NCBI GenBank assembly: GCA_903907865.1
Contig: CAIVPR010000097.1
Coordinates: 1 to 64,000, forward strand
Source of the DNA: an uncultured Acidobacteriia bacterium
GTDB taxonomy: Bacteria > Acidobacteriota > Terriglobia > Bryobacterales > Bryobacteraceae
Direction of reading: 5' to 3'
DNA: 64,000 nucleotides
In this document: piece by piece, positions 29,212 through 45,003 of the stretch
How positions within the stretch are numbered: position 1 is the stretch's first letter
Layout of the letters: each line of letters starts with the position of its first letter
Program-made: the position numbers and the translations under genes
Notes under the pieces: model-generated
Seen by the model: only the letters and a program-made list of their open reading frames with translations
What the model was told of the DNA's origin: nothing
Databases searched by the model: none

Positions 29212-29227
29212 TAGGCACCAAGATACC

Positions 29228-29500
29228 TTATGGCTGGTGGTCCAGAACGGCGCGTTCGAGATCGGCGGTTTCGAGACCTTCGACCTCGAGGATCTTGAGG
29301 GGCGAGGTGAGGCCGGTTGCGATCCTGACGGCAGCGGCGGGCACGCCGAGGAGCTTGGCGAAGAAGCGGATAATCGCCTCGTTGGCCTTGCCGTCCACTG
29401 GCGGAGCAGCCACGTTCAGCTTCCAAGCCTCGCCGTGGCGGCCCGCAAGTTCGGTGCTGCGGGCTCCGGCGCGGACTTTCAGCGACAGGCGGGCCTTCAT
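29228..29500 (-). CDS. DUF167/YggU-family protein
   Basis: A 90-residue protein of the conserved YggU/DUF167 family. Visible signatures are the strand KVRAGARSTEL, the block VAAPPVDGKANEAIIRFFAKLLG, and VRIATGLTSPLKILEVEG. Structures of relatives exist but no function is established. The ATG overlaps the TGA of the ABC ATPase gene (ATGA), so it is co-translated with it. Confidence 0.85.
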   Translation of the reverse strand: MKARLSLKVRAGARSTELAGRHGEAWKLNVAAPPVDGKANEAIIRFFAKLLGVPAAAVRIATGLTSPLKILEVEGLETADLERAVLDHQP

Positions 29501-30743: not shown

Positions 30744-33700
30744 CTAACAGCGAATCACTAGCGTCAGGTCCGAGCCCGGGTTGGTCGTCCCGACGCCGGT
30801 GACGTCCATCGAAACAATGTCGCCCGCACGCAGAGCTGGCAGCCCGAAACCGGGAGTCGGAATCGACGTCGCGCTGCCCGTATTGAACTGCACTGTAGCG
30901 TACGGCGAGCCGTTCCGATTCACCTGCAGCGTGATCCCGGCCCCCGTCGGGGCGGTCCCGACGATGCCGTAGATGTCTCGCACGACCCGGTCGGCATCGA
31001 CAATGACGCTCGGTGCAGCCCCCGTCTGGACTGCCAGATACCCGGCAATCTGGAACGAGTACTGACCGCCCGCCATGGTCCGTAGCCCGTTGTCGGAATA
31101 CGAGGTGAAGGGCAGATACCCGGTTGCTCCGTCACCCAAGGCGTTGGTCATGAACAGCTCCACGCTTGCCAGCCGCACATTCGGAAGTTCCAAGCTATAC
31201 TTCCAGTCGCCTGCCGCCGGGCTCCCAAAGAACCCTTTCGCGAAGGGCACAATCGCGACCTTTTCCTGCAGCTTGTACACGAGTGCCCCGGCCGCATGTG
31301 CCGAAGCCGTCGTCCCGTACATGCCGCGTTGAATCGTCGTCACCCCGCCCGTTGTCGAACCGACCATCACGACCTCGCTGTCGATCTGAAGCGCCGTGCC
31401 GGGATCGATTGAAACGCCCAGAGTCACGGTGGTGTTTACAGCTCCCATTGAAGCCGACAACGTCATCGGGGTTGCCCCACCGACCTCGTCGTAATAGTGG
31501 AACTTGTACGTGCCGCTCGTGATACTGCGGGTGTTCACCAAGCTTGAGAACGAAAGCGACCCCAAATCCAGCACCCCGCCCCTTGCCGACGACACCGCTA
31601 CGCCGAAGTTTGCACTCGGCGGGACATCGGAATCCGCCAGCAGCGCCCCCGACTGCCCCAGCACCCACCGGGTCACTGGCGACAGGTCGTATTCCGCCTC
31701 GTCTCCGCCCACGTTCGCAGCCCGTGCCGACAAATGCACCCCGGCACCCATGCGTTCCGGCACCGTGATGCTGATCGGACTCGCGGCACCCTTCGCGCCC
31801 GTCCTCCAGGCGTTTTCCGACAGCGTGAAACAGCTTGTGGCGTCCGGTACCGTCGACCACGCGGAATCCACCGTCACCGTGTGGGCGTCGTTCGAAGCGA
31901 CTGCCCGCTCCTGACCGGCACCAGTGCCCCTCGTGATTCGCACACGCGTCCCGACATACTGGTTCACCGTCAATTGGAGCACCGAATTACCGACCGTCGT
32001 CGCCGAATGCACTGAGGCCCCGGTCTCCGGCAGCAATTCCCAACGCCAGTAGAGATCGACATGGTCGAATTGGGGATCGGGCGGCAAGACCGTCTGCGGT
32101 GCCAGCCCTGTATCGACGAAGGTTGTAGCCGCCGTTTGGTTCGACGCGATGCGGAACAACTGCCGTGCCGTCAGACCTCGATATACGTTGAACCCGGTCG
32201 CCCCTTTGGGCAGGCCGATGCCGTTCAGCGTGACCGTGTTCGTCGAACTGCCCGCTGAAACCGCGACCTGAGCCACAAACGACAATTGGCCTTCCGCACC
32301 GGAACTGTCCACCGCGCTCACCGCGTAGAAATACGTCATTCCGCCCGTCAGAGTGCCACCCGTAGTTGAAATCGACGGCGTGAACCCGATCAGAGGCGAC
32401 GACAAGCTTCCAGAAGCCCCCGACGGCCCCGTAAACGAGACGGCCAATTCGACATTCGTCGATCCGTCACTTCCGTTCAACTCTGTCTCTCGCACGCCCA
32501 ACTGCAAGATCCCGTTGCTGTCCAATATCGACCCGCAAACCGGAGCCGGCAATCCCGTACCCTGTCCGGAATGCCAGCCGCGTCCGCCGACAATGCCGGT
32601 CACGGTGTCCGAATACCACGCGTCGTTGTGCAACTGTGCTGAAATCGTCGCGGTCCGGAAGCTCGGTCCCGGCACTATTCGGGTAATCCGGAACGGCGTA
32701 CGATTCAGGTTCTCCTTCGCGTAGGTCACTGTGATCAGGTCCCCGGGCATCAAGCCGAGACCCTTCACGCTGGTGGTGAAGTCGATGAAAACGTTGCCCT
32801 CGACACCGCGGTTCAATCCCAATAGCACCATCCGCGCCGCTTGACTGAAGTTGGTTATCCCGACCGCATCCAGTTGTGCCGAAACCTCCTGCCCGCGCAG
32901 ATCCACGTCGTCACCGTCCGAAAGTGACAGGCTGTCCTGTTGGTATTGGTTGAACGCGTCCTGGAACTCCACCGATAGCCGGTTCGGCACATCCTGCGCC
33001 CCTTTGGATGAAAGCCGCACGCTCGAACTTCCGTCCGCATTGCGCGCAATCGAGGACGAGTCGAACTCGTACGCGGCCCACCCGCCGCTGTAGATGCCAG
33101 TGGCATTGCTGCCAGCCGGTTTCGCGGGCTGCTGTAGCGCGAAGGTGTTTTCAATCCGCGCTTCCAACCTACCTGCCGAATTCAGCACAAGATACATCCG
33201 CGAAGAGTTTCGCAAGGCCCGGATAACCTCGCCCGCACTCCTACGCTGCTTCAACGCGAAATTGCACTGGAACCGCGGAACTTGAACCGTCCCACCGAGT
33301 GGATCGGGAGTTGTGACGAAGGCCCCCGCGTACGCGGCAGCTCGTGCAAAGCTCGGCGTATCCACCTCGTCGAGCGAGTAGCCGCACCGGCGCACCACAT
33401 CCAACAACACCCATGCCGGATTGTCAGAGAACTGTTCACCTAGATAATTGCCGGAAGTGTCGAATTGTTGCAGCTTAAGCCCTTGCATCAGGACTTGGAC
33501 CACAGGCACATTCGTGCCGTCGTTGACACGGTTCGGCACCACCACCGAAAGATAGGCCATGCTCCCGTAAGGGTCCCCCATGGCATTGCCGTGACCGTCC
33601 GTGAAATTTGGATCCGCAACCCCTTCGCGCGTCCCGGCAGTAATTACGTTGTACCAGCCGGTCGAAGTCATGTTGGCCCCGGTGATCCCCTGTGGTATCT

Positions 33701-34643
33701 CGACGCCGTTCACGAGAACCTTCAGCATCCCTTGGATCTCGCCCAACCCCAGGAGAACTTCCATCCGCGTGAGATTGCCGTCGTTGCGCGAAAATACCAC
33801 GTCCGGCGTATGCCACTGTGTCCCGTAGACAATGGGAACAAAGTCGTTGTAGCGCGCTTGGTTGTCCTGAACCGCCGAAAGAGAGTAGTTCTTCTGCCCG
33901 GAGCCCCTTACCATGATGGTGGGCGGTACAAACTCGATGCCTCCGAAATGGCCCGTCGTCCGCCCTGCGGAATCGATGTGGAACATGCCGCGCGACTGGC
34001 AGTCGCTTCGCGTCCGGGCGCAATCCGTGTAAGCTGCGGTCCCGTTCAGGCTGCCCTTGCCACTAGCCTGGTCCGCCGAGTAGCCGCACCGGTAGAATGG
34101 CGAATACTTGCCCTTCGACGAGCCCCCGTCCACCGCCTCCAGCCTCTGAGCCGCCGTTCCCGGAAAGCGCCAAGGACAAAGCCTCTGCACCCGCACATCC
34201 GGAATCACGCTACGCTGTGCCGACATCCGGTTCATCGCGCTAAGTCGGAACGTGTCCTCCGCCATCAGCTCCGGCGAGTTCATCAACCCTGTAAACACAA
34301 CGAATGGGTCGGTCGTCGCGCTTGCCGTCGCAACATTTGCAAACACCACACTGACGGTAAGCTTCGATCCCTTGAATCCCGTCTGTTGCTCTATCTGTGA
34401 TAAATGCGAATCGGCGTTCGCCAGTTCGAAGGTCAGTTTCGGTGCGCCGCCCACCTGCGTGTCCGAAGCCAATTGCGCCTCGAACAGATTGTGCCGTAGA
34501 ACGCGACCGTCGTAACTCCGCCCGTTCCACGTGAACGCCCTGCTGCTCCAATGCTGCGAGCTGCCATCGGCAAGCGTGCAATCGAAGAACAGGAGCGGAG
34601 TATCCGCGCTCAGTATTTCTTTGGCTGTAAGTGGACTTTGCAT
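30744..34643 (-). CDS. Phage tail hub/tip protein, gpL-like plus gpJ-like
   Basis: A 1,299-residue tail-tip protein, last gene of the cassette. Residues 1-220 resemble a distal hub protein with cysteines C156, C186, C208 and C215. The last three intervals parallel the [4Fe-4S] ligands of lambda gpL. Around 262-272, VPIVYGTQ resembles the start of tip-attachment proteins (gpJ). The middle third carries baseplate-hub-like segments. From about 750 on there are fibronectin/Ig-like domains (GATGFNVYRGL) and a beta-rich C-terminus likely to contact the host. Start ATG with GGAAGG upstream. Confidence 0.78.
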   Translation of the reverse strand: MQSPLTAKEILSADTPLLFFDCTLADGSSQHWSSRAFTWNGRSYDGRVLRHNLFEAQLASDTQVGGAPKLTFELANADSHLSQIEQQTGFKGSKLTVSVVFANVATASATTDPFVVFTGLMNSPELMAEDTFRLSAMNRMSAQRSVIPDVRVQRLCPWRFPGTAAQRLEAVDGGSSKGKYSPFYRCGYSADQASGKGSLNGTAAYTDCARTRSDCQSRGMFHIDSAGRTTGHFGGIEFVPPTIMVRGSGQKNYSLSAVQDNQARYNDFVPIVYGTQWHTPDVVFSRNDGNLTRMEVLLGLGEIQGMLKVLVNGVEIPQGITGANMTSTGWYNVITAGTREGVADPNFTDGHGNAMGDPYGSMAYLSVVVPNRVNDGTNVPVVQVLMQGLKLQQFDTSGNYLGEQFSDNPAWVLLDVVRRCGYSLDEVDTPSFARAAAYAGAFVTTPDPLGGTVQVPRFQCNFALKQRRSAGEVIRALRNSSRMYLVLNSAGRLEARIENTFALQQPAKPAGSNATGIYSGGWAAYEFDSSSIARNADGSSSVRLSSKGAQDVPNRLSVEFQDAFNQYQQDSLSLSDGDDVDLRGQEVSAQLDAVGITNFSQAARMVLLGLNRGVEGNVFIDFTTSVKGLGLMPGDLITVTYAKENLNRTPFRITRIVPGPSFRTATISAQLHNDAWYSDTVTGIVGGRGWHSGQGTGLPAPVCGSILDSNGILQLGVRETELNGSDGSTNVELAVSFTGPSGASGSLSSPLIGFTPSISTTGGTLTGGMTYFYAVSAVDSSGAEGQLSFVAQVAVSAGSSTNTVTLNGIGLPKGATGFNVYRGLTARQLFRIASNQTAATTFVDTGLAPQTVLPPDPQFDHVDLYWRWELLPETGASVHSATTVGNSVLQLTVNQYVGTRVRITRGTGAGQERAVASNDAHTVTVDSAWSTVPDATSCFTLSENAWRTGAKGAASPISITVPERMGAGVHLSARAANVGGDEAEYDLSPVTRWVLGQSGALLADSDVPPSANFGVAVSSARGGVLDLGSLSFSSLVNTRSITSGTYKFHYYDEVGGATPMTLSASMGAVNTTVTLGVSIDPGTALQIDSEVVMVGSTTGGVTTIQRGMYGTTASAHAAGALVYKLQEKVAIVPFAKGFFGSPAAGDWKYSLELPNVRLASVELFMTNALGDGATGYLPFTSYSDNGLRTMAGGQYSFQIAGYLAVQTGAAPSVIVDADRVVRDIYGIVGTAPTGAGITLQVNRNGSPYATVQFNTGSATSIPTPGFGLPALRAGDIVSMDVTGVGTTNPGSDLTLVIRC

Positions 34644-34726
34644 AGTTTGCCTTCCGATAACCGACTCTTCTTTTTAGGCGGCAATAACCGCACCTTCCGC
34701 TGCGCCGCCACCATTTCGGCCCTGGC

Positions 34727-35503
34727 CTAGCACCGGGAAACCAACACCAGATCTGTCGCCGACAATCCCGGACCCGTTGCCCTTACGGCCAACTCGTCCT
34801 TTCCAAAGTAAGTCTCCGGGTAAATCCCGAAAGCCGCTCCGGACGGCTTGTACTTGGAAGGATACGGCTGGCACTCAACCTGCATCCCAAATACTTGAAC
34901 CGTTGCGCTCGCCGGCACCGCCACCGAAAACGCCGATTGCTCCGCCCCAGTGTTGCCCGGAATACCTAGGTAGACCCGCGACCACGCCGTTCCGGCCGCG
35001 AAGCTTGATCGCGTCCCGTCCCGGTCCAATGCCACTATCACCGGACTGCCAGCGCGAATCCACATGCTGAAACAGGCGACGTAACTCCCTTGCAGGCCAA
35101 TCGTCTGCGTGCACTGCAACTCGCCCGCAGCCGGATTCGACAACTGCCACGCCCCGTGCCCACCCAGCGGATCCGCGATGCTCCCGGTAACCGTCAGAGA
35201 ACCTGCTTGCCAGTCCGGGCGGGTCAAGTCCTCGCTCCACGCCAGTAGATTCGCGGTCGGATCCACAAACCCGAACGCACCGTATCCACCCCGTGAGCTC
35301 TGAAACAATCCCGCAATCGCCGCCGTCTCGGAATCCGAAAGATCTTGGTAGCTCAAGCGCCACTCAACCTGCCCCGAGTGGGCATCGGCCAGAGTAATTC
35401 TGGCACCGTCCTCCATCTCGTTGCGAACCATCCGCCACTTGCGGCCTCGGCCCAAAGGAAACTGTGCAATCGACCCGCCGCCTATCTGTGGAAACCAGTT
35501 CAT
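34727..35503 (-). CDS. Phage minor tail protein with lectin-like domain
   Basis: A 258-residue structural protein. The N-terminal 90 residues (RMVRNEMEDGARITL, WRLSYQDLSD, IAGLFQSSRGGYGAF) are paralogous in pattern to the 116-residue protein encoded just upstream: both read W-x-L-x-Y/D followed by a gap and then a F-x-D-P motif. The rest is a beta-sandwich like a carbohydrate-binding module (CFSMWIRAGSPV). Overlaps the stop of the upstream gene by 4 nt (ATGA). A distal-tail or baseplate part is inferred from position. Confidence 0.6.
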   Translation of the reverse strand: MNWFPQIGGGSIAQFPLGRGRKWRMVRNEMEDGARITLADAHSGQVEWRLSYQDLSDSETAAIAGLFQSSRGGYGAFGFVDPTANLLAWSEDLTRPDWQAGSLTVTGSIADPLGGHGAWQLSNPAAGELQCTQTIGLQGSYVACFSMWIRAGSPVIVALDRDGTRSSFAAGTAWSRVYLGIPGNTGAEQSAFSVAVPASATVQVFGMQVECQPYPSKYKPSGAAFGIYPETYFGKDELAVRATGPGLSATDLVLVSRC

Positions 35504-35850
35504 GCGACCTCCTCCACAACCAGCGCTGCCCGTCCGCGCGATTCCTCCCTATACGTCAGCTCGAAGCTGTCCTCTGCAACAACACAGTTAGCCACGCTGC
35601 TGGAAGAAATCGGATCGTAGAAAGAGAACGAGGCTCCCTGCTGTTGCTCGACAAAGCTGATCAACGCAGCCATCTCGCAGTCGTCCAACAAGTCCAGTTC
35701 GATCCGCCACCGCCGCAGTCCACGACTGCCCAACGCATAACTCTGGCGGCTCCCGTCCAAAAACTGTACTGCCTGCGTCTTGAACCGAGTCGTCAGTTCC
35801 AGCGGATGCTGCGCCACAGCCCCTGTCTTCAACAATGGAAAAGTAGCCAT
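35500..35850 (-). CDS. Phage minor tail (distal-tail-like) protein
   Basis: A 116-residue protein after the tape measure gene, in the place of lambda gpM or DUF2460-type distal tail proteins. Signatures are FLDGSRQSYALG, RRWRIELDLLDDCEMAAL and FYDPISSS, typical of short distal tail proteins that begin the tip. Coupled to the next gene by ATGA. The identity is inferred from position and motif, so the exact family is open. Confidence 0.6.
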   Translation of the reverse strand: MATFPLLKTGAVAQHPLELTTRFKTQAVQFLDGSRQSYALGSRGLRRWRIELDLLDDCEMAALISFVEQQQGASFSFYDPISSSSVANCVVAEDSFELTYREESRGRAALVVEEVA

Positions 35851-35851
35851 A

Positions 35852-36553
35852 TTACAGGTCCGCCACCACCGAGTTGATTGGATGGTTGTTCAGCATCGCC
35901 TCCCGGACCGCGCTCGCGATGTCCGAGCTCCGATCCATGAAACTCTGGCTGTCCATCGCGTTCACATTGACCGTAATATTCGAAGTAACCGCAGGTGGCG
36001 TACTCGCTCCTTGCGATCCTCCGCCCGATGGCGCACTGGCAATGGTGGCTCCAAGATCCACATTCCTGAATGAGCCGAGTACGCTCCCGCCGGAGCCTAA
36101 GGAACTAGGCGACGAGGCTCCCCCACCCTGTCCCCCAAGAATCGCGTCAATCGCAACTGACGGCGGAGCCTTGTAAACCGGAAGAGCCGGCGGCGGTGCC
36201 GACGACCCTCCCCCGAACAAACTCGCAATGCCCGAAATGACAGGCGACACCAGCCCCGTGATCCCGTGCAAGAACGTGGACGCGATCCCGCCCAGCGTGC
36301 TCGAAGCCGAATGCGACGACTGTGCAGCCGTGTTCCCCTGCAGCGCTTGGGTATTCGCCGCGATCACGTCCTGTTGTTGTTGGTACGACTGCCGAAGCTG
36401 CGCGATCTCCTGTCCCGCTTGCGTCAAGGACTGGCCCAAGTCAGCGCCATTCGAACTACTGACTCCGGCTGTAAGTGTAGGCACTGCCGGAATCCCCCGC
36501 GAATGCGCGGGAGCTATCTCTCGAAAGACTTCCTCAATACTCCGATGTGACAT
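35852..36553 (-). CDS. Short tape-measure-like tail protein
   Basis: A 233-residue protein at the tape-measure position, directly after the frameshifted chaperone pair. It has a coiled-coil stretch (about 36-70, QAGQEIAQLRQSYQQQQDV), a hydrophobic Gly/Ser-rich segment (about 85-120) and a long Gly/Ser/Pro region. It ends in VNVNAMDSQSFMDRSSDIA..REAMLNNHP, a C-terminal signature seen in many tail tape-measure proteins. The start is set by GGAGG 7 nt before the ATG, nested in the end of the upstream frame. If this is the whole tape measure, the tail is very short. Confidence 0.65.
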   Translation of the reverse strand: MSHRSIEEVFREIAPAHSRGIPAVPTLTAGVSSSNGADLGQSLTQAGQEIAQLRQSYQQQQDVIAANTQALQGNTAAQSSHSASSTLGGIASTFLHGITGLVSPVISGIASLFGGGSSAPPPALPVYKAPPSVAIDAILGGQGGGASSPSSLGSGGSVLGSFRNVDLGATIASAPSGGGSQGASTPPAVTSNITVNVNAMDSQSFMDRSSDIASAVREAMLNNHPINSVVADL

Positions 36554-36887
36554 CCCGTTCCTCCCGTTCCATCTGCTCCCGCAGGATCAAGAATCCATCC
36601 ACCTTGCGCGCCTCCAAGTCATCAGTCTCCGGCATGCTCAAGCGACGCCGCACCAGAAACTCCTCCAGTAGCGCTAAACTCTCGCCCGTCACTAGAGACT
36701 TAGGGCACTCCTCGGTACTTATCTGTTTGCGCCCCCACACGATCCGCGCATCTCCGCGCTCGCCATGGGGCAGGAATCCGCACCGACGCTTCTTTTCCAG
36801 CCCGTTCTTCCTGCAACTGCCGCAATCCCACACGGACCGTCCGCCGGACCCACTGCCCGCGGCATAGAAATGGAATGCGACAACTAG
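36534..36887 (-). CDS. T-like extension of the tail assembly chaperone (expressed by -1 frameshift)
   Basis: An open frame of 117 codons that overlaps the end of the G-like gene. Joined to it by a -1 shift, it gives a protein of about 242 residues, the counterpart of lambda gpGT. The frame has no good start of its own: the only candidate is a GTG at 36833 without a clear Shine-Dalgarno sequence. It contains a four-cysteine cluster (CGSC, then RRCGF and EECPK) and a C-terminal charged helix. It overlaps the tape-measure start by 20 nt. Confidence 0.65.
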   Translation of the reverse strand, partial: LVVAFHFYAAGSGSGGRSVWDCGSCRKNGLEKKRRCGFLPHGERGDARIVWGRKQISTEECPKSLVTGESLALLEEFLVRRRLSMPETDDLEARKVDGFLILREQMEREERDVTSEY

Positions 36888-37261
36888 TTTTTTCGTTCTT
36901 GCTCACCAAGCCCGCACTCGGCCTTCACCGCGCCGAGCGCCTCCCGGAATAGCTCTTCCGGACCCGAATCGATAAGCATTGCCACGGTCGCGGGCTGGCC
37001 GTCCAACTCCAGCCCGCGTACCTCCGCCACGCCCCACGCAACATACAGCCGGTCGATCTCCGCCGATAGCACGCCGGCCTCGATCCGACTCTTCTCGCCC
37101 GTCCCGGCTTCGAAGAACTCGGCTTTGCCAGCCAAATCGCGGACACGCTTCATGAGCTCCAGACGCCGTCCGAAGCTCATCCGCGCCAGCACCAACTCCA
37201 CGCCCGGCCATGTTGCGGACGCAACTACCTTACTGCTACTCCACTGTCCTGTTGCTTGCAT
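36884..37261 (-). CDS. Tail assembly chaperone (gpG-like)
   Basis: A 125-residue, mostly helical acidic protein located between the major tail tube gene and the tape measure. This is the conserved place of the tail assembly chaperone G in long-tailed phages. It ends in EQERKN, encoded on the slippery sequence A AAA AAC followed at once by TAG. A fraction of ribosomes would slip -1 there and continue into the T-like frame. The ATG has GGAACC upstream. The family is assigned by position and recoding signal, not by clear sequence similarity. Confidence 0.7.
   Translation of the reverse strand: MQATGQWSSSKVVASATWPGVELVLARMSFGRRLELMKRVRDLAGKAEFFEAGTGEKSRIEAGVLSAEIDRLYVAWGVAEVRGLELDGQPATVAMLIDSGPEELFREALGAVKAECGLGEQERKN
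36887..36893 (-). promoter_or_regulatory. Slippery heptamer A AAA AAC for -1 ribosomal frameshifting
   Basis: In the zero frame the codons are CGA AAA AAC TAG, a canonical X XXY YYZ site with the stop codon immediately 3'. After slippage the next codon is CTA and the frame stays open for 117 codons. A short GTCC-GGC-GGAC hairpin lies about 35-45 nt downstream; a stronger stimulator was not identified. Confidence 0.75.
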
Positions 37262-37267
37262 GGTTCC

Positions 37268-38437
37268 TTACCCCAGTGCGATCGCGATTTCGTCGTTGGA
37301 CGTGCCCTGCGCGCGGGATTCCTTGAACTTCCACTTAAGGCGCTTCTCGGAGTCGTCGAAGGTGGGAACTTCGGGCACGATGCTCTTGATGTAGATGCCG
37401 GCCAACTGTCCGGCACTCTGCCCGAGTTGGAACATCAGTCCGACCGGATCCTGTTGCCGTGCCGCTTGATAGAGCGCGGCAGTCAGCGCGTCATCCTGCG
37501 CGAACAACTCGAGACTTACAGAGACCTCGCGCAGTCCTGGATTCAGCCCCTGCGGCAGCGAACTTCCAAATTCCTTGTTGCGCGCCTCCAAGTTGTTGCG
37601 AACCTCGATGGTGGCCGACGAAACTGTGAACATCTGTGTCGGCAGCACGCCAATCCAAACCTGTCCCAAGTTTCCCGGAACGGGCGAATAGGTGTCGCCA
37701 GCAAGGGTGGGCTCCGACGGAAACGCGGTCGCTCCGTTCTGTCCCGCGATAAAGGAAGCACCGTCGACAAGATCCTGCGCATGGCCGCTGAATCCAAACG
37801 TATGGAAGTCGCCATTCAATTCGACGCTCATCTTGTCGACGCCGGCTCCCGCAAGAACCCGCTGTACGGCGGTCGAGGGATCCCAGTAGTCGTACAAGGT
37901 GATGCTTGGCAACTCCGTTGCCAAATGGTAGTTTGCCGTGGGACTCAATGGCACTCCCGGCACTGGTGCCGCAGAGAAGGGGGCGTTCAAGACAACGGTC
38001 TGCGGATCCGCCACAACTCCGACAAATCGGATCTCTCCGTTCGAGACAAGCGCCTGTCCGGGCGTCAAATTGTGCGGTGTCGTGAAGACCACGGAAGTGT
38101 CCGAGCTCCCCGTGGTCGCCGTTCCACCAGCCCACAGGTGTCCCGCGCATCCGAGAGCTGCCTCGAACATTGGTCCATGCGGTGGCAGGACGGATTGGTT
38201 CGGCCAATCCCGCATATAAGTCTTCAAATCAAACGTAGTCTGCCGGCGCATGCCGCGCGGCAGCCCCGCCCATGTCCGGCTGCCCGTTTTGTCGCGCCGC
38301 GAGCTAACCTGCCGCTGATGTTGGGCCTGCAGACTAACCGACGGAATCCGATTGCCCGCCGTGATCGCCGCCATCTGCCCGTAACTTGTCTCCTTGGCGC
38401 AATACCACCGGTTTGCGTTGGAACTGATGTATGCCAT
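37268..38437 (-). CDS. Phage major tail tube protein
   Basis: A 389-residue protein at the major-tail-protein position, before the chaperone. It has a beta-rich N-terminus (AYISSNANRWYCAKETSYG), an inserted Ig-like domain (about 110-180, LTPGQALVSNGEIRFVG) and a C-terminal half resembling tail tube folds (MSVELNGDFHTFGFSGHAQDLVDG, PEVPTFDDSEKRLKWKF). Longer than simple tube proteins because of the insert. The frame is open to 38542, but the ATG at 38437 lies 5 nt after the preceding gene's stop and has AAAGG. Confidence 0.7.
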   Translation of the reverse strand: MAYISSNANRWYCAKETSYGQMAAITAGNRIPSVSLQAQHQRQVSSRRDKTGSRTWAGLPRGMRRQTTFDLKTYMRDWPNQSVLPPHGPMFEAALGCAGHLWAGGTATTGSSDTSVVFTTPHNLTPGQALVSNGEIRFVGVVADPQTVVLNAPFSAAPVPGVPLSPTANYHLATELPSITLYDYWDPSTAVQRVLAGAGVDKMSVELNGDFHTFGFSGHAQDLVDGASFIAGQNGATAFPSEPTLAGDTYSPVPGNLGQVWIGVLPTQMFTVSSATIEVRNNLEARNKEFGSSLPQGLNPGLREVSVSLELFAQDDALTAALYQAARQQDPVGLMFQLGQSAGQLAGIYIKSIVPEVPTFDDSEKRLKWKFKESRAQGTSNDEIAIALG

Positions 38438-38442
38438 AACCT

Positions 38443-38937
38443 TTACTTGCTGACCTCCACGTCGAATCCGACTTTCGCTTTCTGCAGGAAGTTCTTCCCG
38501 CCCTTTGCCACGGGCTCGTAGTTCACGGTGTACCCGCCGCAATACAGTGCACCACCGCCCCAGTTTCCCCGCGAGTCATCCAACATTGCGCACAGGGCGT
38601 CCACGTAGAGCTGCGTGCCTGCCTCCAGCCCATCCAGCTTGTCCTGCGAGTTGCGAACCTCCACCACCATGTGCGCCTTGCCCGAGAAGTGCCGGAACTT
38701 TTCCTCGAGCGAGTTCGTCAGTTTGTCGCAGTAAACCAGGAGCGCTGGATAGTGCGCGTGTCCCGCCTTCTCGCTGATGTCCACACTGGTGTTCAGTGTC
38801 GAGATGTTCCGAATCCCCACCGCCGACAATGTGGAATCCGCGCTTTCCATCGCGCCAAGGCGAATGTTGACACCATCCGTGTGCGACTGTAGCTTCGTTA
38901 CCACCGAACTGGTCAATCGTCCCGTAATCCCGGCCAT
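38443..38937 (-). CDS. Phage tail terminator/neck-like protein
   Basis: A 164-residue protein between the connector genes and the tail tube. It begins with helices and strands (KLQSHTDGVNIRLG), then HYPALLVYCDKL, AHMVVEVRNSQDKLDG and a C-terminal strand KVGFDVEV. This resembles tail terminator or completion proteins that cap the tube and join it to the head. The assignment rests on gene order; sequence similarity is not recognised. Confidence 0.55.
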   Translation of the reverse strand: MAGITGRLTSSVVTKLQSHTDGVNIRLGAMESADSTLSAVGIRNISTLNTSVDISEKAGHAHYPALLVYCDKLTNSLEEKFRHFSGKAHMVVEVRNSQDKLDGLEAGTQLYVDALCAMLDDSRGNWGGGALYCGGYTVNYEPVAKGGKNFLQKAKVGFDVEVSK

Positions 38938-38977
38938 CTCTCTCCTCCTTCAGTCCTGAATAATCTGTCCGCCGTGC

Positions 38978-39739
38978 TTAACCCCGCGAGATCGTCCGTC
39001 CCACAATCCGCGTGAACTCCGGCAACTGCCCCGAACCTGGTAACCGTCCGTTCGTCGACCAGCCCGGCACATACGTGAAGCTCGAAGTCGGTGTTACCGG
39101 AACATGGGTTTGCAGGGTCATGCGATTTAGATCGGCCCCCGCGTACACATTGAATCCGACCGTATTTGCCGGTGCACCCGACGCCGAAACGGTCATCAAG
39201 TACCCGTCCGCAATAGTCACCGACGACGCCACAGACGGGGCACCTTCTTGGCCACGCCCGTTCACCCAAGCCACGCTGGCATAGAACGTGCCCCCCTTCT
39301 GCGGACCCGGTACTGCCCCAAGTGTCGGTGCGCTCGCAACGCGCACTGGCTCCGCTACCAGGCCAATGCCGCTTGCCAGAAAGTTCTCGAATGCGACGCG
39401 CGCGTAGACCGCAAACTGCTGCGCCTTGGCCTGATAGCGGTCCACCAGCTGGCTGAAGTACGCGTCCTCGTAAACCTTCGACAGCGCCAGCATGGCTTCC
39501 CAGCGTCGTAGGTTGTCGCCGAAGACCACTTGGTCAACGCGCAATCCCGCGAACGGCTGTAACTCCAACGCGCGGGGCCGCTCCAAACGATACCGCAACT
39601 CGCCGTCGATCTCCTCGTGGGCGAGCCGTATCTTCGTTGTCACATTGATGGCGCAGGCCGCAGCCACATCCAGTAGACCCGAATCGTGGTCCCTCAAACT
39701 GTCGACCGTATTCGCCGGCCCATCCACAAAGAGCGCCAT
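38978..39739 (-). CDS. Phage connector-region protein with C-terminal Ig-like domain
   Basis: A 253-residue protein. The N-terminal part (about 1-130) is helical and could be a head-tail adaptor (WEAMLALSKVYEDAYFSQLVDRYQAK). The C-terminal part (about 140-235) is a beta-sandwich with TFYASVAWVNGRGQEGAPS and TVGFNVYAGADL. This closely echoes the domain in the tail hub protein (YFYAVSAVDSSGAEGQLS, ATGFNVYRGL), so it is a shared surface module. Function inferred from position between coat and tail genes. Confidence 0.55.
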   Translation of the reverse strand: MALFVDGPANTVDSLRDHDSGLLDVAAACAINVTTKIRLAHEEIDGELRYRLERPRALELQPFAGLRVDQVVFGDNLRRWEAMLALSKVYEDAYFSQLVDRYQAKAQQFAVYARVAFENFLASGIGLVAEPVRVASAPTLGAVPGPQKGGTFYASVAWVNGRGQEGAPSVASSVTIADGYLMTVSASGAPANTVGFNVYAGADLNRMTLQTHVPVTPTSSFTYVPGWSTNGRLPGSGQLPEFTRIVGRTISRG

Positions 39740-39742
39740 GGC

Positions 39743-40051
39743 CTAGCTCCTGTCTTTCTGTCGCAGGTCCGACTGGGAAACCACGACCACTTGCATGCGC
39801 CTAGCCGACTCTTCCCGTTCCCATCGCTCCCGAGCCTCGCGCAGTTCCTCGCGGAACATCCAAGCTTCTTCGTTGCTAGCGGCGCGCGCACGTCCATCGA
39901 CGATCAGCTTGGCCGCAACCTTGTTCGAGACTTCCGTCCGCACGCCGGGCTTGCCGCCCTCGGCTGTCGCGAGACTGACCATCACGACCTGTTCTCCGGA
40001 CAACAACTCCTCCGCCTCGCGGAGCTTCTTGTAATACGCTCGTAAGTCCAT
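39743..40051 (-). CDS. Small conserved phage protein, charged helical
   Basis: A 102-residue protein of unknown function between the coat gene and the connector-region gene, 3 nt before the latter. It is helical and charged (LRAYYKKLREAEELLSG, EAWMFREELREARERWEREE), with a central VVMVSLATAEGGKPGVRTEVS strand region. The ATG at 40051 follows AAAGGATTGGT and was preferred over an upstream ATG at 40213 that would cross the structured repeat. Possibly a minor head protein. Confidence 0.6.
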   Translation of the reverse strand: MDLRAYYKKLREAEELLSGEQVVMVSLATAEGGKPGVRTEVSNKVAAKLIVDGRARAASNEEAWMFREELREARERWEREESARRMQVVVVSQSDLRQKDRS

Positions 40052-40108
40052 ACCAATCCTTTCTTGTGAGTCCGATACGCTGCTTGCTGGGATGTCTGAA
40101 AAGCCAAA

Positions 40109-40166
40109 TCCCTCGCCGTCGTGGCCCGGTAAAACCAACCCGCTACCGAGCCGCGACCGCAAGGGA
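40109..40166. repeat. Interspersed structured repeat, copy 2 (long imperfect inverted repeat)
   Basis: Arms 40109-40131 and 40144-40166 are 23 nt each and pair at 19 positions plus one G-U. The right arm contains CCGAGCCGCGACCGCAAGGG, nearly identical to the minus strand of the copy at 17.2 kb. It lies in a 225-bp gap of the phage cassette. A second inverted repeat, CCGGCGG/CCGCCGG (40232-40261), lies just after the coat gene. Confidence 0.65.
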
Positions 40167-40277
40167 GCGTCCACTCCCCGGCATGTTAGCCGAGATAGTC
40201 GTGATCGCTTCACTCAGCTGTTTGTCAGGGCCCGGCGGCCGCCATTTTGGACGACCGCCGGCACCACCTGCACTCGA

Positions 40278-41186
40278 CTAGCTGTTGATCTGCACCGCGT
40301 GGTTGTTCCGCAGGATGGCGCAACCATAAAGCACATCAACCGTGAACTGCTGCGACAGCGTGTTCGGCTGGTAGCTCATCGTGACGCGCATGCCGAAGTT
40401 GCCCAACTCGGCATACTCTGCGATGGCACCCGTACCGGCCAGCGGCTGCGGCAACCGACGAACCACCAACCCGATCGCGTCCTTCACGAACGCGAGGTTG
40501 TGTGTGTTCACCGGGGAACTTCCCGTCTTCGGCGCATACTGCGAGCGGAACACGTAGAAGTCCTTGATCTTCCCGATGCTTCCGTCGATCATGGTGCGCA
40601 GCCCAGCCTCGCCGACCGTCTGATACTCGCTGAAGCGAGGGATCTGGCGCATCTGAGAGTAAGTGGCGCTGTCCACAATCAAGTACTTCGGCCCCGCCGG
40701 AACCTTCGCCTGGAACAGTGCGGTTTCCGCTTGGTCGAGGATTGCTTCCGTGACCGGAGTGCCCGCCGTGCCCAAAGGAGTGTTGGCCGTGAACGACGCG
40801 TAGAGGTTCAACAGGTCGGTCTCGATCTTCTCCGCGATGGCCACAACGGCCGGCTGCATGTAGACCTTCAGGAGGTCCGGCACCGCGATCACCTTCGTCA
40901 CGTCGGGAATCACGAACGTCGCTTCGGCGTGCGTGTTCAGCACGATCTGCGCGTTGCCGAGACTCGGATTCTGCGGAGTGACCGTCCCGCCTTCGGCCAG
41001 GTTGTTGGCCACCAGCTGGGGAGCGATCGGCACATTGACCGTGTCGCCCGCCTGGGCCAGAACCGGCTCGTAGTCCCGGTTCACGAGGTTCCCCATGACG
41101 AGGTTCCCCACCAGTGCCGGCAGTGCGTCCGCCGCCACGAGCTTCACAATCGCGTTCGCCACATTTGCTGACGTAATGGATGGCAT
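40278..41186 (-). CDS. Phage major capsid protein, P22 coat-like
   Basis: A 302-residue capsid protein following the scaffold gene. It starts with SITSANVANAIVKLVAADALPALVGNLVMGNLVNRDYE and continues with GDTVNVPIAPQL, then FVIPDVTKVIAVPDLL..YMQPAVVAIAEKIETDLL. This is the pattern of P22 gp5-type HK97-fold coats without a prohead protease cleavage region. P22 coat is larger because of its I-domain; this one is compact. AAGGAAG precedes the ATG. An intrinsic terminator lies 42 nt upstream of the start. Confidence 0.85.
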   Translation of the reverse strand: MPSITSANVANAIVKLVAADALPALVGNLVMGNLVNRDYEPVLAQAGDTVNVPIAPQLVANNLAEGGTVTPQNPSLGNAQIVLNTHAEATFVIPDVTKVIAVPDLLKVYMQPAVVAIAEKIETDLLNLYASFTANTPLGTAGTPVTEAILDQAETALFQAKVPAGPKYLIVDSATYSQMRQIPRFSEYQTVGEAGLRTMIDGSIGKIKDFYVFRSQYAPKTGSSPVNTHNLAFVKDAIGLVVRRLPQPLAGTGAIAEYAELGNFGMRVTMSYQPNTLSQQFTVDVLYGCAILRNNHAVQINS

Positions 41187-41227
41187 GTTCTTCCTTTTCT
41201 CTCTTTCGTGTGTTCAACTCGTGCCGC

Positions 41228-41254
41228 AAAAGAAAAGGGGCCGTCTCCGGCCCC
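41228..41254 (-). terminator. Intrinsic terminator/attenuator between scaffold and capsid genes
   Basis: On the minus strand GGGGCCG-GAGA-CGGCCCC forms a perfect 7-bp stem with a GNRA-type loop, followed by TTTTCTTTT. It lies between the scaffold gene and the capsid start, so upstream transcripts would stop or be attenuated before the coat gene. Confidence 0.7.
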
Positions 41255-41351
41255 GCGTCTCCCCGACACATCCAAATTCGTTGTTGCTGCCGTCCGGAGC
41301 GCCTCCCCTTGGAAGTGCTCCCCCGGCCCGAATTCTGTGGTCCCGTTGTGG

Positions 41352-41408
41352 GCAGCCATTCTTGGCTGCAGCCGCCTTTCTAGGCGGCCATAGCCGAGCT
41401 GTTCGGCT
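41352..41408. repeat. REP-like tandem hairpin element, copy 1
   Basis: Three adjacent hairpins after GTGG: GCAGCCA-TTCT-TGGCTGC (41352-41369), GCCGCCT-TTCT-AGGCGGC (41371-41388) and AGCCGA-GCTGT-TCGGCT (41392-41408). The first two match other copies near 43.45 and 63.0 kb. The 265-bp gap that holds it has no coding sequence. Confidence 0.75.
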
Positions 41409-41451
41409 CTAGACCGCTCCCTCAACCCACGACGGCAACCACGAAACGCTC

Positions 41452-42009
41452 CTAGACTCCCCGCTGCGGTTGGGTCACCCGAAGGATCTCCTGCCGCACC
41501 CGGTCCAAGTCTTCCCTGCTCATCGACGGGCCGATTCTGTCGATATCGATGGCGCCCGGTCCAACCTGCGGCGTCGTCTTTTGCGTGCCCGTCATCCCCG
41601 TTCCGCCCGCAATCCGCGCGGGCAGAAACTCCGGATTCTCTTGAACGAAACCGGCCAGATATTCCGAGACGGGAACGTCCCCGTGCTCGGCCTTGGCTAC
41701 CAGCCGTCCGTCGTCAGTTCGTGCGATTCCGTCCTGCACCGCCTTGTAAGCCAGTTCGACCTTCGTCACCCCCAGCTTTTGCAGTTCCGCCCGGATCGCG
41801 CTGGCCCGCTGTGCCTCTTCGGCCATCGCGCGGCTGCGTCGATTCTCTTCCACCAGCTCGTTCATTCGCTTTTCGAGCTGTTCGCGGCGGCGCCGTTCCT
41901 CCAGCAGCTCCGCCTTGTATGCGGGCTCCCGTCGCGCGCCGTCGCGCTTCATGTACTCGTCGATCGCCTGCTGCACCACGTTCTGCACATTGATCGCTTC
42001 TTCAGTCAT
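41452..42009 (-). CDS. Phage capsid scaffolding protein
   Basis: A 185-residue, strongly charged, coiled-coil protein between portal and coat genes. Residues about 30-85 are a coiled coil (KAELLEERRRREQLEKRMNELVEENRRS). The rest is helical and ends in a Pro/Gly-rich linker and a short C-terminal helix (SREDLDRVRQEILRV), the type of helix-turn-helix that binds the coat in P22-like scaffolds. It should guide procapsid assembly and then exit. GGAGAC precedes the ATG. Confidence 0.75.
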   Translation of the reverse strand: MTEEAINVQNVVQQAIDEYMKRDGARREPAYKAELLEERRRREQLEKRMNELVEENRRSRAMAEEAQRASAIRAELQKLGVTKVELAYKAVQDGIARTDDGRLVAKAEHGDVPVSEYLAGFVQENPEFLPARIAGGTGMTGTQKTTPQVGPGAIDIDRIGPSMSREDLDRVRQEILRVTQPQRGV

Positions 42010-42017
42010 CGTGTCTC

Positions 42018-43400
42018 CTATTCCGCCGTATTCGCGTCGATCTCCTCGGCGATCCGCGCCTTCGTCTCCTGCCTCGCGTCGGACAGGTACTTCATCGCCA
42101 CGCGTTTGTACACCTGGCGCTTCAACGTCGGCGACTGTACTCCGAGATTCAACAAGTTCTGGGCATCGGCGACCTCGGTCGAGAAATCCGTAATGTCGAA
42201 CTCGTCCAAGCCGCCGACCTCCAGTTTCAAGTCATCCTGCCGTGCCTCCGCCACCGCCGCGATCACCCTCCGGATCGCGTCCCTCACCGTCATCCCGTAG
42301 GCCCTGAGAACCTCCTGGGTGACACTGAAATCCCATTGCTTCGACAGCCCGGACGCCCGGCCCGTACTCTCCCCCGCTTGTTGCAGCAGGTAGCAGACCC
42401 GGTAGATCTCGTCCTTGAGCCGCGAAAGATTGTCCTTGGCGATCTGGAATACCTTGCCCTCGGGCTCGGTCCATCCGTACCGGTCGTTTGGACCCAGTTG
42501 GATGAAGTAACTCTCGCCCATCAGCTGCTTGAACTCTTTCTCTGAAAAAATGACCGGCATCGCAAACAGACCCATGGTCAAAGCCCATCCGAGCGCGTTC
42601 GACTTGTTGAAGTGCTCCAGCTGCAGCAACCCGGCCTTGTTTGTCAACCAGAGCCCATCGCTGACCTTCAACTCGAACACCGGAACTTGTCCGATAGCTG
42701 CAAATCCGTGCAAGCCCTCGTCAACCAACTCGATCCGGCTCCCGCCGTCCACTTCGCGCCGCTCGAAGATTTGGTACTTCTGCCGGTCATAGTAGACCCA
42801 GCGGGTTTCTTTCTTCCACCCGAAGCTCTTGACGCTGTCTTGCTTCAGGCAGGCGGTCCGCAGCACGATCCACTCCAAGATCCCGTGGTCGTCGTGGCTC
42901 CAATTGATAACTTCGTCGGCTGTGTAGCCGACTAGATACGCCCGGCTCCGTCCCTGCGCATCTTCTTCTGCCCGACTCAGCGGCACATCTGCCACCTTGG
43001 GGAAATCCACCACAATGTACGACTTCCCGCAAACCAAAGCCTCCGTAAGCTGATCCTTGAAGAACTGGGTCAACGAGGTGCCCCGCAGATCGCAGTTGTC
43101 CACAAAATCGTTATAGAAGCTCTTGGCGGTGTCGCCAAGTCCGCCAAACTCCAGCAGCGGTCCCTTTCGCACCAAAGTGGCCGTGTACCAATCTACAATC
43201 GACCCGACGTAGTTCTCATAGAAGACCCGTGCGAGCCGCTCGTGGTACACATCCAACCCTTCCTTCTGCCGCTGGACCAGATACTCGCCCGCGTTCTGCC
43301 GGAACTGTTCCCCGCCGGCATATAAGTCGCGATACCTCCGCCACACTCGCCACTTGGCCGAATAGTCCGGATGTTCCTGCTCGATATGTTCGTTCATCAT
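42018..43400 (-). CDS. Phage portal protein
   Basis: About 460 residues. This is the dodecameric ring at one capsid vertex through which DNA is packaged. Signatures include HPDYSAKWRVWRRYRDLYAGGEQFR at the N-terminus, ARVFYENYVGSIVDWYTATL, and the C-terminal SGLSKQWDFSVTQEVLRAYG, with the helical tail AIRRVIAAVAEARQ. The layout resembles DUF4055-type portals. A run TTG-ATG-ATG offers several starts; GAGGAG favours the ATGs at 43400 or 43397. It lies between terminase and scaffold, as expected. Confidence 0.8.
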   Translation of the reverse strand: MMNEHIEQEHPDYSAKWRVWRRYRDLYAGGEQFRQNAGEYLVQRQKEGLDVYHERLARVFYENYVGSIVDWYTATLVRKGPLLEFGGLGDTAKSFYNDFVDNCDLRGTSLTQFFKDQLTEALVCGKSYIVVDFPKVADVPLSRAEEDAQGRSRAYLVGYTADEVINWSHDDHGILEWIVLRTACLKQDSVKSFGWKKETRWVYYDRQKYQIFERREVDGGSRIELVDEGLHGFAAIGQVPVFELKVSDGLWLTNKAGLLQLEHFNKSNALGWALTMGLFAMPVIFSEKEFKQLMGESYFIQLGPNDRYGWTEPEGKVFQIAKDNLSRLKDEIYRVCYLLQQAGESTGRASGLSKQWDFSVTQEVLRAYGMTVRDAIRRVIAAVAEARQDDLKLEVGGLDEFDITDFSTEVADAQNLLNLGVQSPTLKRQVYKRVAMKYLSDARQETKARIAEEIDANTAE

Positions 43401-43441
43401 CAACTCCTCTCTAGCCTGTGCCCTGCCAGGGCCGCCGTGGG

Positions 43442-43478
43442 GCAGGCAGTCTTGCCTGCAGCCGCCTTTCTAGGCGGC
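43442..43478. repeat. REP-like tandem hairpin element, copy 2
   Basis: Hairpins GCAGGCA-GTCT-TGCCTGC (43442-43459) and GCCGCCT-TTCT-AGGCGGC (43461-43478) follow GTGGG. The second is identical to that of copy 1; the first differs by compensating changes in both arms. It sits between the terminase end and the portal start. Confidence 0.75.
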
Positions 43479-43516
43479 CCTAACCGCACGCCCCGTTGCA
43501 CCCACCCCACCCACAC

Positions 43517-44788
43517 CTAAAACAACCGCACTCCGCGCTCCCCGACCGTCCCCCGGCCTTCATGGCAAATCAAATAGCCCAACGCATCCGATAAATGCGT
43601 CCGCCGCCGGTCTCGATCCTTGTCGATCTCCGTCGTATCCTCCCGGTAGCAAACCTCCTCGAAGTCCGCAATCAACTCCCTGCACCCTGGGTCCACATAC
43701 AACCGCACATCCCCGGCCGCACTCCGCAACTTCGAATTCACCGCCGTCACCCGAGTCCGCACAGGGGGATTCGCTGACGGTACCCGGTACGATACCTTCG
43801 CGGCCCGCACTCGGAAATACTCCCGGATGATGTCGTAGTCCGAATACCCCGAAGTCTTCATCGAAGCCCCCGAAGCATCCCCGTACACCACCACTCCCGC
43901 CCTCGGTAGCCCGAATCGCCGCTCGAACTCCGCGCAAGCCTGCTCCGTCGTCGCCCGACGCAGCACAATCTCTCCGAGCACCCTTACCTCGTCGCCCGCC
44001 ATCTGCGCCACGACCGACGACATCGGATCCACATTGAAATCCACGGCCCAGCAGACCGGTTGCCCGACATCCATCTCCACCGGCCGCACATTGGCGTCCC
44101 GCGCAAACGACCCGTACACCAGCCCGCCCTTGACATTCAGGTAACTCCCCAAAACTTCCTGCTGGAAGAACGCCTCGTCGTAGCTAGCCTTCAACCGGTC
44201 ATAGAAATCCGGCACTTGGTCCAGCAGGAACCGGTTCTCGAACGGTTTCGCCAGCACCGCCTCATACCCAGCGGCAGGGTCCTTGATGAACCGCCGGTAC
44301 ACCCAGTCAAAGCCCTTCGGCGTCCACACCGCGAACCCGCACAACCGCGTCGCCTTCGGATCGCGCAAACGACCCTCCAGCCGCAGCCACGCCCCTTCCT
44401 GCGAGTAACTCAACTCGTCCAGCCCGAACCACGCCAAATTCGTGCCCCGCAGCCGTTCGAATTCGTCCACCGCCCGCAGCAGGATCCGCGACCCCGTATC
44501 CGACATCGTCAGGACGTTCTCGCTCTTCTGTAACTCGAACGGCAGCCGGCTTGTCTCCAGCGCCTCCGTCAACGACGCCACGGTCGCGTCCCGCAACATT
44601 GGATACGTCGGAGCCCCGATCAGCCCCGTCCGCCCCGGATTCAAGTAACTGAGGCGGATCGCCTCTTGGCACAGCGCTTGGCTCTTACCCGACCCAATCG
44701 GCCCCGAAAAGCCCTTGAACCGCGCCTCGGACCGGTGGAACTTCGCTTGACTCGGCAGCGGTCGATACCGGATACTCCTCCTAGCCAT
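43517..44788 (-). CDS. Phage terminase large subunit
   Basis: A 423-residue DNA-packaging motor. The ATPase domain has Walker A GPIGSGKS (29-36) and Walker B LAWFGLDE (118-125). The RNase H-like nuclease domain has WAVDFNVDP (D250), VYGDASG (D304) and a C-terminal HLSDALGYLI with the third acidic residue. The ATG at 44788 shares a base with the upstream stop (TGATG) and has GGAGG 7 nt before it, better than the GTG at 44794. It cuts and translocates phage DNA into the procapsid. Confidence 0.9.
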   Translation of the reverse strand: MARRSIRYRPLPSQAKFHRSEARFKGFSGPIGSGKSQALCQEAIRLSYLNPGRTGLIGAPTYPMLRDATVASLTEALETSRLPFELQKSENVLTMSDTGSRILLRAVDEFERLRGTNLAWFGLDELSYSQEGAWLRLEGRLRDPKATRLCGFAVWTPKGFDWVYRRFIKDPAAGYEAVLAKPFENRFLLDQVPDFYDRLKASYDEAFFQQEVLGSYLNVKGGLVYGSFARDANVRPVEMDVGQPVCWAVDFNVDPMSSVVAQMAGDEVRVLGEIVLRRATTEQACAEFERRFGLPRAGVVVYGDASGASMKTSGYSDYDIIREYFRVRAAKVSYRVPSANPPVRTRVTAVNSKLRSAAGDVRLYVDPGCRELIADFEEVCYREDTTEIDKDRDRRRTHLSDALGYLICHEGRGTVGERGVRLF

Positions 44789-45003
44789 CACCACTCCTCC
44801 ACCCAGCGCACCCGCAGCCTCTTCGCGGACACTGGCTGCCGATCCTTCGACAGTTCCAGCAAACGCACAAAGTCGGCCAGTGATATGGCACTCTCGTCGA
44901 TATGTTCACCGAAGACCACAATGGCCCGCGTTACTGCCCGCAACGCCTTCCGCCGAGCCCCGGTGTCACCCGCTCCGCGCTCTTGTCTCTTCTCTCGGCT
45001 CAT
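44788..45003 (-). CDS. Small basic protein at the terminase small-subunit position
   Basis: A 71-residue basic protein (MSREKRQERGAGDTGARRKALRAVTRAIVVFGEHIDESAISLADF.., split here by function not position). It begins the cassette, ends in TGATG overlap with the large terminase, and so is translationally coupled. Position suggests a terminase small subunit or DNA-recognition protein, but it is shorter than usual and no helix-turn-helix is certain. The frame extends upstream to 45348 into the divergent PEP-CTERM region; the ATG at 45003 is preferred. Confidence 0.5.
   Translation of the reverse strand: MSREKRQERGAGDTGARRKALRAVTRAIVVFGEHIDESAISLADFVRLLELSKDRQPVSAKRLRVRWVEEW

Follow-up and report, generated by a model that had tools for sequence, protein, structure and literature searches.

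In phage lambda the gene of the tail tube protein is followed by the genes G and T and by the tape measure gene. We have analyzed a gene pair resembling G and T in a stretch of DNA from an uncultured Acidobacteriia bacterium of the family Bryobacteraceae (contig CAIVPR010000097.1 of assembly GCA_903907865.1, positions 1 to 64,000). This whole 64-kb stretch is called the window in the following; the pair and the entire cassette around it lie on its minus strand. An earlier note, made from the letters of the window alone, had read the pair as two tail chaperone frames joined by a programmed −1 ribosomal frameshift. With many related loci now compared, we also come to the conclusion that a programmed −1 frameshift joins G and T, at a probability of roughly nine in ten. 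Ribosomes translating G would reach the heptamer A AAA AAC just ahead of the stop codon, where most of them would terminate and release G. A minority would slip back by one nucleotide, tRNA-Lys and tRNA-Asn now pairing with AAA AAA, and would read on into T to yield a G-T fusion. Possibly a stem–loop which begins 5 nt past the heptamer stimulates the slip. If the two proteins act as they do in lambda, G would coat the tape measure and the T part would recruit tail-tube subunits, in this case within a phage-derived, short-tailed cassette of the kind of a gene transfer agent (GTA). Sequence, gene order, conservation, synonymous constraint and pair counts are what we observe; that the slip takes place, how efficient it is, what the stem does to it and that G and T act as chaperones are inferred.

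What the locus shares with lambda is the gene order and, as proposed here, a −1 shift shortly before G ends. For G and T we likewise suppose the roles given for lambda in the excerpted part of a review (PMC5009743). The locus differs from lambda in the heptamer, which for lambda is G GGA AAG according to the earlier note, in the proteins G and T, which match no described family, and in the candidate stem past the site. Also unlike lambda, the tape measure has a length of about 233 aa and the genes form a chromosomal cassette which is present in most genomes of one family.

The gene transfer agent RcGTA has its head-tail genes, a DUF2460 gene among them, clustered on the chromosome, and its tail is short. 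The cassette described here is alike in this, with a tail predicted to be short. Unlike the RcGTA-type agents, however, it has a capsid protein of a P22-like family.

The comparisons with other recoding sites draw on excerpts of the cited papers. A AAA AAC has been described as tail-chaperone site in phage phiCbK (PMC3556154) and in Acinetobacter phage Loki, where it stands directly before the stop codon (PMC5313236), and possibly also in Paenibacillus phage Dragolir. Both phiCbK and Loki thus share the heptamer with our locus and Loki in addition the abutting stop codon; unlike the cassette they are free phages, and the excerpts mention no stimulator for them. The g-t shift site of the haloarchaeal HCTV-2 is A_AAA_AAC as well (PMC5009743), but this is an archaeal virus and we liken it to the window by the heptamer only. 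In E. coli constructs A AAA AAC ranks well below A AAA AAG (PMC5009743). The −1 frameshift of E. coli dnaX combines an A6 slippery heptamer with a downstream hairpin (PMC3711429) and is in this respect similar to the locus studied here. It differs in that its heptamer is A AAA AAG, that it has a Shine-Dalgarno-like stimulator upstream, for which we find no support here, and that its frameshift product is the shorter one.

With A AAA AAC in tail chaperones already in print, the novelty lies in the conserved stem, in both protein families and in the family-wide short-tailed GTA-like setting. No conserved stem at a tail-chaperone slip site is described in the titles and abstract openings of the few papers listed on tail chaperones together with frameshifting and pseudoknots or stem–loops. 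Among the matches listed for GTAs with Acidobacteria, Solibacter, Bryobacter or frameshift and tail (mostly titles and abstracts) none describes the present cassette.

Slippery heptamer and the two reading frames

In the window G ends with CGA AAA AAC TAG (36893-36884, minus strand), with the heptamer abutting the stop codon exactly as the earlier note had read it. Its lengths are also correct on the window sequence: the 125 residues of G and the 117 codons of T past the heptamer add up to a fusion of 242 residues (Table 1). Upstream of the heptamer the T frame is open for just three codons, none of them a start, and no ATG, GTG or TTG precedes the conserved first residues of T, in agreement with the earlier description of T as a frame without a good start of its own. 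On its minus strand the window has two copies of AAAAAAC/T and on its plus strand seven. A copy directly followed by a stop codon is found once per strand, the one on the minus strand being the G-T site.

For comparison 174 loci were available, namely those of 162 matching genomes of the window's family (the window's own included) plus 3 plus 9 further relatives, the nine being drawn from part of the order-wide matches. Dropped were L175, whose contig starts within T, L188 and L189, which belong to other families, and the duplicates L186 and L187. The T frame of L124 is broken by an apparent indel; this locus was left out of the codon and start counts, hence n = 173 there. A second set consists of 80 IMG/VR contigs retrieved via the capsid protein, 43 with T and 37 without a T match. 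The combined total is 217 loci, and the IMG/VR loci may share organisms with the genome loci.

The earlier note had suggested comparing related cassettes for conservation of the heptamer and of both frames, and this comparison bears it out, with both halves of the pair being conserved. Of the 174 genome loci, 167 have A AAA AAC and 6 have A AAA AAT (5 of these from the divergent genus g55), that is A AAA AAC/T in 173/174, and the remaining one has GAGAAAC. In the 43 IMG/VR loci the heptamer reads A AAA AAC in 39, lies in a run of nine A in two, and reads AAACAAC and GAGAAAC in one each. Thus A AAA AAC/T or an A9 run is present in 214/217 loci. The zero-frame stop codon follows 0-1 codon past the heptamer in 170/174 loci.

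The first two Lys codons of the T frame are AAA in 172/173 and 173/173 loci, respectively, compared to 48.4 expected from the codon usage of the same genes. Because these codons lie so far above the codon-usage expectation across the loci, a chance origin of the slip site is excluded, and the AAA codons are held by more than the protein sequence alone. The last base of the heptamer is always a pyrimidine, C or T, which is compatible with slippage of tRNA-Asn; since an invariant Leu codon begins with this same base, it is limited to C or T regardless. An alignment of 103 T sequences has 12 invariant columns, and T is conserved from its first residues onward: within the first nine, K2, L3 and A6 never vary, and K1, F7, H8 and F9 hardly ever do. 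Such conservation of the site and of the frames points to continuing selection on tail assembly in the family-wide, chromosomal, phage-derived cassette of these Acidobacteriota.

A candidate stem–loop past the slip site

The earlier note had found no strong stimulator structure obvious. This statement has to be revised, since a candidate stem of 11 bp starts 5 nt past the heptamer, in a region where the nucleotide conservation continues. The candidate partner of GTCGCNTTCCA is TGGAAG-(T)-GCGAC, located within the W-x-C-D/E codons of T. The window itself allows all 11 pairs, 10 of which are contained in its lowest-energy fold. At least 8 of the 11 pairs are possible in 174/174 loci and all 11 in 104, with loops of 22-43 nt (25 nt in 150 loci); among the IMG/VR loci 41/43 can form at least 8 stem pairs and the other two 6 and 7. 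RNAalifold, unprompted, recovered 10/11 stem pairs. No Rfam match was obtained up to E 1 in 36300-37400.

Covariation was scored on the 150 of the 174 loci which have the 25-nt loop (147 distinct rows). The stem cells are paired in 95.0%, compared to 89.6% with the letters of the 3′ side shuffled, there are 61 double-change cells versus 17.7 after shuffling, and the covariation score is 0.212 versus 0.138. For each of these three measures 0/500 shuffles reached as high a value. When the partner was slid by 1-3 columns the pairing fell to 38-50%. One stem pair is formed by the third base of T codon 5 and the first base of the codon after Cys24. T codon 5 encodes Val, Leu, Ile, Ala or Thr and has C as third base in 172/173 loci versus 39.2 expected; the codon after Cys24 (Asp, Glu, Gly, Ala, Val) has G as first base in 174/174 loci. 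With the protein fixed and the codons redrawn, 10.45 real pairs stand against 9.18 in the null, and 166/174 loci exceed their own null.

The stem–loop could nevertheless be without function, its pairs following from the F-H-F and W-x-C codons and the heptamer alone being sufficient. Several results weigh in this direction and thus against the stimulatory stem. As the redrawn codons show, most of the stem pairs (9.18 of 11) would arise from the conserved amino acids alone. Two of the five covariation measures do not rise above the shuffles, namely the pairs with a double change (4 versus 3.2, 128/500 shuffles as high) and the further pair types (16 versus 14.7, 92/500 as high), and according to the tool description it is these two that are least inflated by relatedness. 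Lowest-energy folds of 90 nt hold at least 8 stem pairs in just 75/174 loci and none in 80. The folding energy compared to a synonymous null has a mean z of only −0.94 (below zero in 147/174 loci), and in a profile over every second locus the stem region is no folding-energy peak. Contrasts on the G tree favour pairing (3.3 versus 0.0 and 3.8 versus 0.0), but too few are supported for significance, and two others among the contrasts listed show 0.1 in the opposite direction. Furthermore, although tail-chaperone frameshifting as such is textbook knowledge, the review cited above, in its excerpt, sees no need for a stimulatory signal in certain tailed phages, which seem to shift without one (PMC5009743). 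What speaks against a non-functional stem is the C at the third base of T codon 5, the number of double-change cells and the phage-like loci L229 and L312, which have another stem at almost the same position. We consider it rather unlikely that the stem is without function. Probably it stimulates the frameshift, our confidence being limited by the two flat covariation measures and the fold counts.

The first of these loci, L229, is found in genome G100 in addition to the usual cassette, with a capsid protein 66% alike. The locus has the heptamer A AAA AAC and, 3 nt further on, a stem GCGTTGCC...GGCAACGC with pair probabilities of 0.83-0.84, and its zero frame continues for about 40 codons past the heptamer. 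Folding of an 83-nt segment gave another structure; segments of 55 and 90 nt give the 8-bp stem. At the place of the tape measure there is an open reading frame (ORF) of 1145 aa (L229:13414-16851) with no PHROG match. L312, a 49.9-kb IMG/VR contig, has A AAA AAC and a stem GTGCTGCC...GGCAGCGC with pair probabilities of 0.93-1.0, and an ORF of 995 aa at the place of the tape measure (L312:8876-11863). The stem of both loci has 8 bp, starts 3 nt past the heptamer and is unlike the stem of the cassette; between the two loci one pair differs on both sides (T-A to C-G). Shuffling of the letters yields an 8-bp stem there in 265/4000 cases for L229 and in 313/4000 for L312. Because this happens so often, each of the two stems is weak evidence alone, a further point to be set against the stimulatory stem. 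The slip site also exists outside the short-tailed cassette.

A Shine-Dalgarno-like stimulator upstream of the site was considered as well and rejected, since the anti-Shine-Dalgarno energies of 8-mers over −15 to −6 equal the synonymous null. Nearer to the slip site the binding is weaker than this null, and at −24 to −12 it is slightly stronger (z −1.2 to −3.9) and weak in absolute terms. The lack of a Shine-Dalgarno-like element near the slip site beyond the level dictated by the protein likewise does not favour a stimulated frameshift. Absence of queuosine as the cause of slipping on AAC was rejected because the TGT gene is present in the genome. Among the 30/46 tRNA loci of the genome that were scanned are tRNA-Lys with UUU and with CUU and tRNA-Asn with GUU. 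Slipping on AAG might be poor because of the separate CUU tRNA-Lys, which would favour AAC.

If the stimulation by the stem is true, we would have here a frameshift between tail chaperones whose RNA stimulator has evolutionary support and is kept as part of a cellular genome. More than 200 versions of this site occur in nature, and with their stem and its compensatory changes they would allow a direct test whether structure tunes the ratio of G to G-T, and also whether this ratio is re-tuned when the tape measure is shortened to about 230 residues from about 1000.

Other possible origins of T and loss of the slip site

It is very improbable that T is a separate protein made from a start of its own (e.g., the GTG at 36833) or by reinitiation past the G stop codon. 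Some ATG, GTG or TTG in the T frame, upstream or within the first nine residues, is present in 105/173 loci, which counts against the frameshift. In the other 68/173 loci, the window included, no such codon could give T with its first nine, largely conserved, residues, and the AAA codons fixed against codon usage also argue against a separate start. The earlier note had named two findings as speaking against the frameshift. One of them, translation of T only from its own start, is thus excluded by sequence in 68 loci and not in the remaining 105.

The other one, T kept without the slippery site, does occur: L037 and L295 have GAGAAAC and L277 has AAACAAC, that is 3/217 loci of two types. This is too rare to refute the frameshift, yet it counts against it. 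As GAGAAAC is present in both collections, it is likely to be the genuine variant of a lineage and not an error of sequencing. Seven T-negative genomes were tested, and five of them are also without the capsid gene. In G076 (locus L224), which keeps the capsid gene, G is retained to residue 114 together with a tape-measure homologue, the heptamer and T being both gone; here the slip site and T vanish together. G182 (L223) also keeps the capsid gene and has lost G and T; an ORF resembles the tape measure by eye and gave no BLAST match. That the cassettes of G182 and G076 manage without T is again a point against the proposed frameshift.

The frame change could also be made by the RNA polymerase slipping on the run of A rather than by the ribosome. 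The site is indeed an A run, with 9 or 10 A in L007, L039, L285 and L294 and 7 in eleven loci. Transcriptional slippage on poly-A is, however, stated for runs longer than 7 in the excerpt of one report (PMC3711429), and the run is exactly 6 in 166/174 genome loci and in 33/43 IMG/VR loci. Moreover the run and the next base hold the one register A AAA AAC/T, although the Leu codon restricts that base to C or T anyway. We give slippage of the polymerase hardly any credence. That the pair is a decayed remnant of a single gene, cut in two by an old indel and by now without a fusion product, has next to no probability: 2/44 genomes (G182 and G076) keep the capsid gene and have lost T, whereas nearly all of the 217 loci show the two-frame layout with both halves conserved as protein, and an accidental indel would not have preserved a slippery site.

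The proteins G and T and the surrounding cassette

G and T of the window have no Pfam or PHROG family match, and their models find no PDB fold match at E 0.001, neither of which favours a frameshift between tail chaperones. The AlphaFold2 models, made separately, have a mean pLDDT of 87.4 for G and 84.9 for T. Relatives of G and T gave scattered weak family matches only; PHROG 313 tail chaperone was matched by 1/102 G relatives with E 0.095 (the 102 aligned G sequences include one just 9% identical to the window G). In 50,697 phage records no match to G or T was found up to E 0.01, and the capsid protein has 77 matches in the same records, all below 60% identity. When the G model was compared with the predicted viral proteins of BFVD the best match was an uncharacterised phage protein (E 6e-9). 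Of the best 50 of 266 rows, 13 carry the name of a tail-assembly protein, a tape-measure protein or a chaperone (E 0.067-1.5), another 2 are specifically named otherwise, and the remainder are uncharacterised or unnamed. The names of these viral fold neighbours agree with the gene order, though the E-values are weak. A chaperone role is put forward because of the gene order, the recoding layout and these weak structural neighbours. Of the lambda-like chaperone pair suggested earlier, layout and gene order hold, whereas G and T are not assignable to the lambda families by sequence. Four cysteines of T (C24, C27, C38 and C63) are invariant in the 103 sequences, which suggests a metal site.

Table 1. 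Features of the G-T pair, the candidate stem and the cassette in the window (E-values follow the family names)
Feature	Position	Strand	Remarks
G-like gene	36884..37261	(-)	125 aa, zero-frame product; 3′ end GAA CGA AAA AAC TAG
Slippery heptamer A AAA AAC	36887..36893	(-)	zero-frame codons AAA AAC
Zero-frame stop TAG	36884..36886	(-)	abuts the heptamer
T-like −1 frame, heptamer to stop	36534..36893	(-)	117 codons past the heptamer; stop 36536-36534
Earliest T-frame start codon, GTG	36831..36833	(-)	behind the conserved KKLVVAFHF; not proposed as genuine start
Spacer, heptamer to stem	36882..36886	(-)	5 nt
Stem 5′ arm GTCGCATTCCA	36871..36881	(-)	candidate stimulatory stem
Stem 3′ arm TGGGATTGCGGC	36819..36830	(-)	one bulged base at 36824; 40-nt loop separates the arms
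Large terminase subunit	43517..44794	(-)	PHROG terminase 1.2e-34; Pfam Terminase_6C 4e-7
Portal protein	42018..43403	(-)	PHROG portal 1e-58
Major capsid protein	40278..41186	(-)	Pfam P22_CoatProtein 4.4e-18; PHROG major head 1.3e-41
Tail tube protein	37268..38542	(-)	directly 5′ of G; Pfam Phage_tube_2 1e-9; PHROG 290 minor tail protein 4.2e-16
Putative tape measure	35852..36553	(-)	233 aa, directly 3′ of T; position; PHROG tape-measure 1.3e-4 over 32 residues
Tail hub/fibre gene	30744..34643	(-)	1299 aa; PHROG central tail fibre J 1e-26; Pfam Phage-tail_3 2.4e-12

The genes of the cassette are transcribed in the order terminase, portal, scaffold, P22-like capsid, three genes without assignment, tail tube, G, T, tape measure, two DUF2460-related genes and hub. 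The scaffold gene is named by its position between portal and capsid and has no family match. The gene order on which the earlier note had relied stands for the tail tube, a homologue of which lies upstream of G-T in 119/120 loci; the tape measure downstream is a weak identification (PHROG 1.3e-4). It also matches a PHROG internal virion protein (6.6e-4), and the longer ORFs of L229 and L312 lie at the same place. From the T stop codon to the DUF2460-like gene the tape-measure gap has a median of 627 nt and a range of 10-1009 nt (117/120 loci, L035-L154). With about 0.15 nm of tail for each residue, a tape measure of 233 aa would correspond to a tail of roughly 35 nm. Of the two adjacent DUF2460-like genes (34727-35503 and 35500-35850) one matches DUF2460 below the Pfam cut-off; the two cross-match in relatives, which suggests a tandem duplication. 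Near the hub gene L225, L226 and L231 have a gene with a non-contractile tail sheath TIM-barrel domain (PF23845).

T is present with one match each in 162/200 genomes of the window's family. In the order Bryobacterales the T profile finds 195/257 genomes; among the matches listed six genomes have two, and all but three are from the window's family, these three coming from two further families. A sample of the phylum Acidobacteriota gave a match to T in 4/396 genomes, two of them being the window's genome and a member of its family. The other two matches (L188 and L189) are weak and cover the Cys region, with no A6 in the preceding 45 bases. The capsid gene was present in 37/37 T-positive genomes tried, the usual copies being 71-89% identical. 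This capsid identity and the presence across one family hint at vertical inheritance of the cassette. The Pfam and PHROG scans gave no integrase among the cassette proteins, no search aimed at integrases having been made. Judged by its gene content the cassette (30744-44794, minus strand; mostly single copy) resembles a gene transfer agent. Tentatively, and with a probability somewhat below even, we propose that the family has kept a functional GTA-like particle whose tail length would be set by the short tape measure and in which a two-part signal, A AAA AAY plus the stem, would set the ratio of G to G-T. We hold this combined reading so low because of the flat covariation measures, the fold counts and a spread which is shown for the family and not for the whole order.

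Genes for an ABC transporter and a peptidase flank the cassette in the window (28051-30714) and in the g55 locus L227 (15796-18098). The chromosomal site of the cassette may be ancestral because the window and L227 share these flanking genes. The same genes were not seen at four loci which extend past the hub (L225, L226, L230 and L231). For comparison, 35 putative prophages in 19 acidobacterial genomes are given in the excerpt of another report (PMC5900883). At least 594 stretches in IMG/VR encode a capsid protein of the cassette type, 80 of which were kept (L232-L311, on contigs of about 4-19 kb), and many of these entries may be chromosomal cassettes catalogued as viruses.

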